From NCBI GenBank assembly GCA_018304425.1, contig JAGVWE010000002.1:124001-188000 (forward strand): a DNA stretch of 64,000 nt. Direction: 5' to 3'. The stretch comes from Candidatus Iainarchaeum sp. (lineage in GTDB: Archaea > Iainarchaeota > Iainarchaeia > Iainarchaeales > UBA10219). The notes beneath the pieces were generated by a model, which searched no databases, had not been told where the DNA came from, and saw only the letters and a program-made list of their open reading frames with translations. A program made the position numbers and the translations under genes. Shown here in pieces: positions 12,855 to 14,531 of the stretch. Every line of letters begins with the position of its first letter. Position 1 is the stretch's first letter.

Positions 12855-14531
12855 ATGAAAGGGCATGCATTGGAGGAAGTCGCGGAGTCGGAGCTGGCGG
12901 TGTTCAAGAAGAAGCTCAAGCTCTTGGCGGGTTTCAAGGGCCACGGCACCGAGTTGATCAGCCAATACATTCCCGCCAACGCGGACCGGAGCACGGTCAT
13001 GGGCGTGCTGACCGAAGAGGTGTCGCAGTCCGGCAACATCAAGAGCCCGCAGACGCGGAAGGCCGTACAGGGCGCCTTGCGGAAGATAACCAATTTCTTG
13101 AAACAAATCGACTTCGACATCCCGCCAAAGGGAATCGTGGTGTTCGCGGGCAACGTGTCGGAAAGCGAAGGAAGAACCGACATCCGGTTGTTCACGGTGC
13201 GGCCGCCCAAGCCCTTGAAGACCAAGCTGTACTGGTGCGACTCCGAGTTCCACCTCGCGCCGCTGAAGGAGATGCTGGCGCCCAGTGAAGTGTATGGCCT
13301 GTTGACGATTGACAAGAACGAGGCCACCATTGCGGTGTTGTCGGGCAAGAAGTACGAAATCATCGGGAAGTTCACGTCGGGAGTTCCTGGCAAGTTTCGT
13401 GCTGGGGGGCAATGCCTGGTGCCGGATTCCCTGGTGCAGACGGCAACCGGCGAAATCATCCCAGTGGGGGACGTGCACAACCCGCTCAATCTGCAAGCAG
13501 CGGACTTGGAAGCCTTAGACGTGACCTCGACGGCAGTCCTCAAAAAGTGGACCGTGACGAAAAAAGAGGCCGTGAAAATAATGACTGAACCGCCGAGAAC
13601 CGAACTCACCTGCTCCCTTGACCATCTAGTGTTTGCCTATCAGGAAGGCACAACAAAAGCAATCCCTGCCGAAGACGTGAATGTCGGAACCGTGCTGTTA
13701 TATGCAGACTTCGGGAAAACGCCGGGACGAAAGATTAGGCTGGTGAAAGTGAAATCTGTTGAAAGGCTGCGGGGCCGGTTCGAAATGGTCGACCTTTCCA
13801 CTGCGCAGCAGAATTTCCTCGCGAACGGCTTGGTCGTTCACAACTCTTCCCACCGGTTCGAGCAGTTGCGTGCGGAGGCCGCGAAGGAGTTTTACAAGCG
13901 CATCAGCGACAAGATAAACACCGCGTTCACGGCGTACGCGGACAAGCTGAAGGGCATCATCATTGGGGGCCCGGGGGTCAGCAAGCAGTATTTCTTGAAC
14001 GTGGACATGATCGACCACCGGCTGAAACCGAAAATCCTGGGCATGCTGGACATCAGTTACACGGATGAGTCCGGCATCCGGGAACTGATTCAGCGCAGCG
14101 AGGAACTGCTGCGGGAAACCGATTTGATGAAGGAGCGCGGGTTGTTGAACAAGTTCTTGGAAGAAGTGGCGAGGGGCCGGCTGGCCACCTACGGGCAACG
14201 GGAAGTGGAGGCCGCGTTGGCGGCCGGCAAGGCGGGTACGCTGATTGTGTCCGAGGCCCTGGAGTGGGAAGTGCACAAGTACGTGTGCGAGGGCTGCAAG
14301 GCCGAGCAAATGGTGTTCATCAAGGAGCCGTTGAATTACAAGGCAACGGCGCAGCCGTGCGGCAAGTGCGGCCGGGAAATGGAGTTGCTGGAGGAAATCG
14401 ATTACATCGACTATCTTTTGGAGAAAGCCCAGAAGACGGGCGCGGAAGTGCGCGTGGTTTCGACGGACACCCCGGAAGGCGAGCAGTTCTTCAAGGGGTT
14501 TGGCGGCATAGCGGCCATGCTAAGGTATTAG
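12855..14531 (+). CDS. prf1: Peptide chain release factor aRF1 interrupted by an intein at GGQ
   Basis: Archaeal class-I release factor that reads all three stop codons and triggers peptide release. Domain 1 has the stop-codon-reading motif NIKS (residues 61-64, in SGNIKSPQTRKAV). Domain 2 has the catalytic GGQ at residues 184-186 (FRAGGQ). Residues 187-330 are an intein, after which the host protein resumes with SSHRFEQLRAEAAKEF. Domain 3 has the two Cys pairs YVCEGCKAEQ and CGKCGREME. Without the intein the product is 414 residues, the normal aRF1 length. The precursor has its catalytic loop broken open, so splicing should be needed for activity. TruD follows 9 nt downstream. Confidence 0.97.
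   Translation: MKGHALEEVAESELAVFKKKLKLLAGFKGHGTELISQYIPANADRSTVMGVLTEEVSQSGNIKSPQTRKAVQGALRKITNFLKQIDFDIPPKGIVVFAGNVSESEGRTDIRLFTVRPPKPLKTKLYWCDSEFHLAPLKEMLAPSEVYGLLTIDKNEATIAVLSGKKYEIIGKFTSGVPGKFRAGGQCLVPDSLVQTATGEIIPVGDVHNPLNLQAADLEALDVTSTAVLKKWTVTKKEAVKIMTEPPRTELTCSLDHLVFAYQEGTTKAIPAEDVNVGTVLLYADFGKTPGRKIRLVKVKSVERLRGRFEMVDLSTAQQNFLANGLVVHNSSHRFEQLRAEAAKEFYKRISDKINTAFTAYADKLKGIIIGGPGVSKQYFLNVDMIDHRLKPKILGMLDISYTDESGIRELIQRSEELLRETDLMKERGLLNKFLEEVARGRLATYGQREVEAALAAGKAGTLIVSEALEWEVHKYVCEGCKAEQMVFIKEPLNYKATAQPCGKCGREMELLEEIDYIDYLLEKAQKTGAEVRVVSTDTPEGEQFFKGFGGIAAMLRY
13413..13844 (+). other. Mini-intein in aRF1 (144 aa, no homing endonuclease)
   Basis: An in-frame insert of 432 bp beginning with Cys1 (CLVPDSLVQTATGEIIPVGD, block A) directly after the host glutamine of GGQ. 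It ends VDLSTAQQNFLANGLVVHN (block F and G) before host Ser+1. Block B is present as TCSLDHLVF, with Ser where Thr is more usual three residues before the His. The penultimate His and terminal Asn are intact, so all canonical splicing residues are present. At 144 residues with no LAGLIDADG motif it is a mini-intein that cannot home by itself. Its sequence looks somewhat more AT-rich than the host exteins, which fits a transferred element. Confidence 0.96.

Follow-up and report, generated by a model that had tools for sequence, protein, structure and literature searches.

Inteins favor conserved functional sites, because their loss there has to be exact and the target has little freedom to mutate (PMC2814812). 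Among the described class-1 inteins of archaea, the PhoCDC21-1 intein (PDB 6rpq) and the Mvu and Mja TFIIB mini-inteins combine a Hint fold with Cys1, a block B His, and a terminal HN, and lie within a conserved motif of their hosts. Inteins also occur in essential translation factors, namely archaeal IF-2 (NCBIfam PRK14845) and eukaryotic IF2/eIF5B (PMC5784728), while the homing inteins of Haloarchaea, such as MCM-a/MCM-d and PolB, are patchily distributed among close relatives and can occupy one and the same site in either full-length or mini form (PMC10643990, PMC3024317). A 2023 survey of archaeal inteins includes only two DPANN genomes in its table (PMC10643990). The locus described here lies in the window, a stretch of 64,000 nucleotides from Candidatus Iainarchaeum sp., whose gene for the class-1 release factor aRF1 is interrupted directly after the codons for the catalytic GGQ. 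Our analysis confirmed that the 144-residue insert is an intein, and the features of the gene are as follows.

12855–14531, + strand: aRF1 precursor ORF with in-frame intein, 558 aa, assigned by profile matches; predicted spliced product of 414 aa
12855–13412, + strand: N-extein, 186 aa, comprising eRF1 domain 1, in whose sequence NIKS and YxCxxxF are seen, and the first part of domain 2, up to ...RAGGQ
13404–13412, + strand: catalytic Gly-Gly-Gln, with Gln186 as the intein −1 residue
13413–13844, + strand: mini-intein, 144 aa, without an endonuclease domain
13413–13415, + strand: Cys1 (TGC), the block A nucleophile, invariant across the family
13614–13625, + strand: block B S68-L-D-H71, the family variant of TxxH, with S68 and H71 invariant
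13791–13793, + strand: block F Asp127, invariant across the family
13839–13844, + strand: block G His143-Asn144, invariant across the family
13845–13847, + strand: Ser+1 (Ser331) of the C-extein (TCT), which is also the residue after GGQ where aRF1 has no intein
13845–14531, + strand: C-extein, 228 aa plus stop codon, comprising the rest of eRF1 domain 2 and then domain 3

To establish the identity of the host protein, we compared the ORF with curated profiles. It matched the NCBIfam aRF1_eRF1 profile TIGR03676 with an E-value of 1.3e-132 and 442.5 bits, well above the cut-off of 234.7, and all three Pfam eRF1 domains were found. Together with the NIKS, YWCDSEF, and GGQ motifs, this identifies the product as a class-1 release factor. 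The TIGR03676 match falls into two stretches, broken after GGQ and resuming at profile position 174, and exactly 144 codons separate Gln186 (CAA, 13410–13412) from Ser331. The ORF contains no internal stop or frameshift. The genome to which the window belongs (1.48 Mb, 92.6% complete) encodes a single aRF1, one pelota-like protein, and a HemK-related methylase, the type of enzyme by which the GGQ glutamine is usually modified.

The insert alone matched the Pfam Intein_splicing (1.1e-8) and Hint (1.3e-5) profiles as well as the TIGRFAM models for the two terminal regions of inteins (N and C), TIGR01445 (3.6e-4) and TIGR01443 (0.016). These scores lie slightly under the curated cut-offs, the first of them only 0.3 bits below its gathering score, yet they are far from chance. 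In an alignment with 48 relatives, residues C1, S68, H71, D127, F135, A137, H143, and N144 were invariant, as was Ser+1 in those alignments that include the +1 position. The residue set is thus that of a class-1 intein, with Cys1, the block B His, the block F Asp, the HN end, and Ser+1 all in place, and with S-x-x-H replacing the usual TxxH of block B, Ser being the rule in the aRF1 intein family. An AlphaFold model of the intein (pLDDT 95.5) adopts the Hint fold. Its top Foldseek match was the PhoCDC21-1 intein (E 7.6e-10), and VIA-align superposed it over its whole length on the NpuDnaB, Mtu RecA, and Pho CDC21-1 inteins with Z scores of 20 to 22. The original prediction of a mini-intein at 13413–13844, exactly after the GGQ of the cell's sole aRF1 and with every splicing residue present, was therefore right to the base and in its account of the catalytic residues, block B having Ser where Thr is usual, and it agrees with the single aRF1 gene that we found.

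We favor, with a probability of about 0.93, the reading that this class-1 mini-intein in the sole aRF1 is a degenerate copy of a horizontally spread LAGLIDADG homing intein whose endonuclease was lost here. After translation the intein would fold as a Hint domain projecting from the GGQ loop. Cys1 would attack the Gln186-Cys1 bond in an N-S shift, the N-extein would be passed to Ser+1 by transesterification, and cyclization of Asn144 would then allow the exteins to join as ...RAGGQ-SSHRFE..., giving a normal aRF1. We infer standard class-1 splicing to the 414-residue protein in a straightforward way, and the fact that the gene is essential and present in a single copy likewise argues for excision of the intein and ligation of the exteins. 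For peptide release, GGQ must enter the peptidyl-transferase center. Since the predicted 558-residue precursor holds the intein as a separate globular domain within the GGQ loop (with residues 180–184 at pLDDT <50), the unspliced form should be inactive.

We then examined the order to which the window genome belongs. Of the genomes in this order, 67 have a detectable aRF1, and in 22 of these the gene is split at the same profile position; such a split is absent from the 12 genomes of the same class in other orders. Except in one genome (G057), the junctions in the order read GGQ|C...HN|S. Most of these inteins are ∼500 aa long and contain a Cro/C1-type HTH besides two LAGLIDADG_3 stretches, and some of ∼432 aa do without the HTH. 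Only the window copy and that of G047 (141 aa) lack an endonuclease domain; we accordingly class the former as a mini-intein rather than as a homing intein. Intein-bearing and intein-free species occur together within one genus many times (e.g., g23, g35, g36, g39, g20, g16, g3, and g28), so the window intein is an in-frame insertion in a conserved protein whose homologs in sister species have none. We found no close relative with the same mini-intein. The G047 mini-intein is its sister in the intein tree (0.89), with 34% identity and exteins that are not sisters, so the two mini forms may or may not go back to a single one. Two further genes of the order deviate in other ways. In that of G057 (L062), an in-frame deletion has removed GGQ and the N terminus of the intein while the remainder of the intein is kept; the gene is either dead or a chimera that arose during assembly at a polymorphic site. 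In that of G027 (L048), the C-extein is frameshifted (a 673-residue frame with the rest in another frame), through either sequencing error or decay.

The family extends well beyond the order. A scan of GTDB genome contigs yielded 181 relatives, and the best 80 of these 181 come from Diapherotrites, Woesearchaeota, Pacearchaeota, Nanoarchaeota, Aenigmatarchaeota, Nanohaloarchaeota, and Micrarchaeota, with a few under bacterial names that are presumably mislabeled records. Wherever junctions could be read among these 80, the host was aRF1 and the site was the same. Our survey covered DPANN archaea and, beyond them, four control genomes. In systematic samples, which leave out the center genomes chosen for carrying the intein, the same-site intein was found in 21 of 116 Nanoarchaeota, 5 of 72 Micrarchaeota, 7 of 53 Aenigmatarchaeota, and 1 of 23 Nanohaloarchaeota. 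About ten mini-inteins were seen at the GGQ site in all; outside the order, seven Nanoarchaeota and one Micrarchaeon have mini-inteins of 130 to 142 aa, and two short forms occur in Aenigmatarchaeota. No relative turned up in the viral contigs that we searched. One match in a phage collection (28.6%, E 0.05) was rejected, as it is an intein in an apparent portal protein, an unrelated host.

Dozens of genomes, each assembled independently, carry this insertion with identical junctions, which excludes chance or assembly error as the source of the insert. In the intein-bearing genomes examined, we found no second, uninterrupted aRF1 but only two halves of one, and splicing is therefore almost certainly required for translation termination in these organisms. 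A split intein was considered for G015, G020, and G032, where the halves lie on two contigs, and was rejected because both reach contig ends, as expected of assembly breaks.

To ask how the intein relates to its hosts, we built trees of 85 sequences with FastTree local supports, that of the intein resting on the short splicing domain (147 columns). Within the order, the exteins form a monophyletic group (1.00) but the inteins do not. Those of G027 and G067 fall in a clade (1.00) with inteins of the same 431-residue type from Pacearchaeota, Nanoarchaeota, and Woesearchaeota. This conflict between intein and host trees across phyla points to horizontal spread, for the whole family and not for the window copy in particular. 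The GC3 of the window intein, 0.65, is lower than that of its two exteins (0.83 each) and of the next gene (0.84). This fits a lower-GC donor, although other causes, such as relaxed codon choice, are conceivable. Homing would have carried the parent LAGLIDADG intein, across DPANN species and phyla, into aRF1 genes that lacked it, at one conserved site, and we infer loss of the endonuclease in the window lineage. The intein probably persists because it is seldom lost precisely and any inexact loss is lethal, and not for any known benefit to the host. The original prediction had held the aRF1 intein to be possibly new and had proposed a search for intein-free alleles among relatives. Such alleles are present in sister species, and we found no intein of aRF1 or of any other class-1 release factor in the open-access literature searched, which is not proof of novelty; the intein is no lone oddity, however, but a widespread mobile allele of DPANN archaea.

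The survey also bears on the GGQ motif itself, whose glutamine is by textbook accounts universal in release factors. Among fetched aRF1 sequences, intein-free Aenigmatarchaeota gave 17 GGQ, 13 GGW, and 6 GGM, intein-free Nanoarchaeota 28 GGQ and 1 GGF, and intein-bearing Nanoarchaeota 8 GGQ and 2 GGW. The variant loci, drawn from Aenigmatarchaeota and, in a few cases, Nanoarchaeota, are as follows.

GGW aRF1: L192, L199, L200, L201, L203, L209, L213, L214, L218, L220, L221, L225
GGM aRF1: L210, L216, L223, L224, L226, L227
GGF aRF1: L240
Intein-bearing variant aRF1: GGW at L155, L163, L164, L184, L185, L187; GGM at L186

NIKS (or NIKD) and YxCxxxF are intact in nearly all of these variants, two GGW proteins giving no match to the NIKS pattern, and the census genomes that carry a variant have a single aRF1. 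The GGW and GGM proteins form one clade in Aenigmatarchaeota, and GGF and GGW a second in Nanoarchaeota, which indicates at least two origins of the replacement. One aenigmatarchaeal gene (L206, genome G303) has GGQ together with an intein of the common type and belongs to a clade (0.85) that is otherwise GGW; in this one genome, the codon flanking the intein may have been co-converted during homing. These natural GGW, GGM, and GGF release factors bear on the claim of a universal GGQ and may merit more attention than the intein.

An alternative that we regard as improbable is that the intein is regulatory, with conditional splicing (redox at Cys1, temperature, or salt) gating termination, perhaps with feedback as the aRF1 mRNA itself needs aRF1. 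The intein would then be more than a parasite that the host tolerates: conditional splicing would switch peptide release post-translationally, and, across the family, the pressure that homing exerts on the GGQ codon may have aided replacement of Gln by Trp, Met, or Phe in some lineages, a scenario that we consider equally improbable. The insertion does lie right at the catalytic residue of the sole release factor, but GGQ|S is a conserved functional site of the kind that inteins favor, and active-site insertion is their general rule (PMC2814812). Several lineages, a small nanoarchaeal group among them, retain mini-inteins that have no endonuclease; against this, most family members have an endonuclease, and many sister species have no intein at all. 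The window copy has a second Cys, C67, in block B, but this residue is not conserved among relatives. None of the analyses that we ran gave a sign of condition dependence. The proposals of redox- or temperature-controlled splicing and of an autoregulatory aRF1 loop thus found no support in the sequence, and the distribution is what an ordinary homing intein would give.

Less probable still is a dead or partly active intein, whether the gene is a pseudogene, the cleaved halves work, or the 558-residue protein itself is functional. Profile scores just below cut-off would be in keeping with decay, but the catalytic residues are all intact, the fold is confident, and the genome's sole aRF1 has no stop or frameshift, while it is implausible that GGQ could reach into the peptidyl-transferase center when tethered to a domain of 16 kDa. 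Finally, a normal lineage-specific aRF1 domain that does not splice, or a Hint domain of the Hedgehog or bacterial-intein-like (BIL) type, is very improbable: although the Hedgehog Hint fold scores as high as inteins do (Z 22), sister species lack the insert at exactly the same point, an HN|S terminus and placement in a conserved site are characteristic of inteins, and the long alleles contain LAGLIDADG endonucleases.

The window genome carries further inteins, with at least seven intein-bearing genes in its 1.48 Mb. That of aEF-2 (L082:2312-6223, − strand, G000:C3) has an intein of >500 aa in the GTP-binding P-loop, with junctions ...AHIDHGK|C...HN|TT, and others lie in the genes for SMC, MCM, SufB, DNA topoisomerase I, and CDC48 (L083, L084, L085, and L086). 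With inteins in both aEF-2 and aRF1, translocation and release would therefore both depend on splicing in this organism.

Taken together, these results extend the range of intein hosts to class-1 release factors, with the insertion at the residue under the tightest constraint in translation termination, and reveal a single mobile family that crosses several DPANN phyla. Intein-bearing cells appear to depend on protein splicing for a working termination factor, and the aRF1 intein is therefore a good natural test of mini-intein domestication. The intein is biochemically ordinary; what we did not find described are its host and site. It shares with PhoCDC21-1 and the TFIIB mini-inteins the fold, the catalytic residues, and the placement in a conserved motif, but differs in its class-1 release factor host, in a +1 residue that is the Ser after GGQ, and in an identity of only 22 to 25%. 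Like the inteins of IF-2 and eIF5B, it interrupts an essential translation factor, whereas their hosts are initiation GTPases and their insertion sites are others. The aRF1 family matches the homing inteins of Haloarchaea in its patchiness among close relatives and in having both full-length and mini alleles at a single site, and it is set apart from them by its host gene and by an endonuclease type with a Cro/C1-type HTH.
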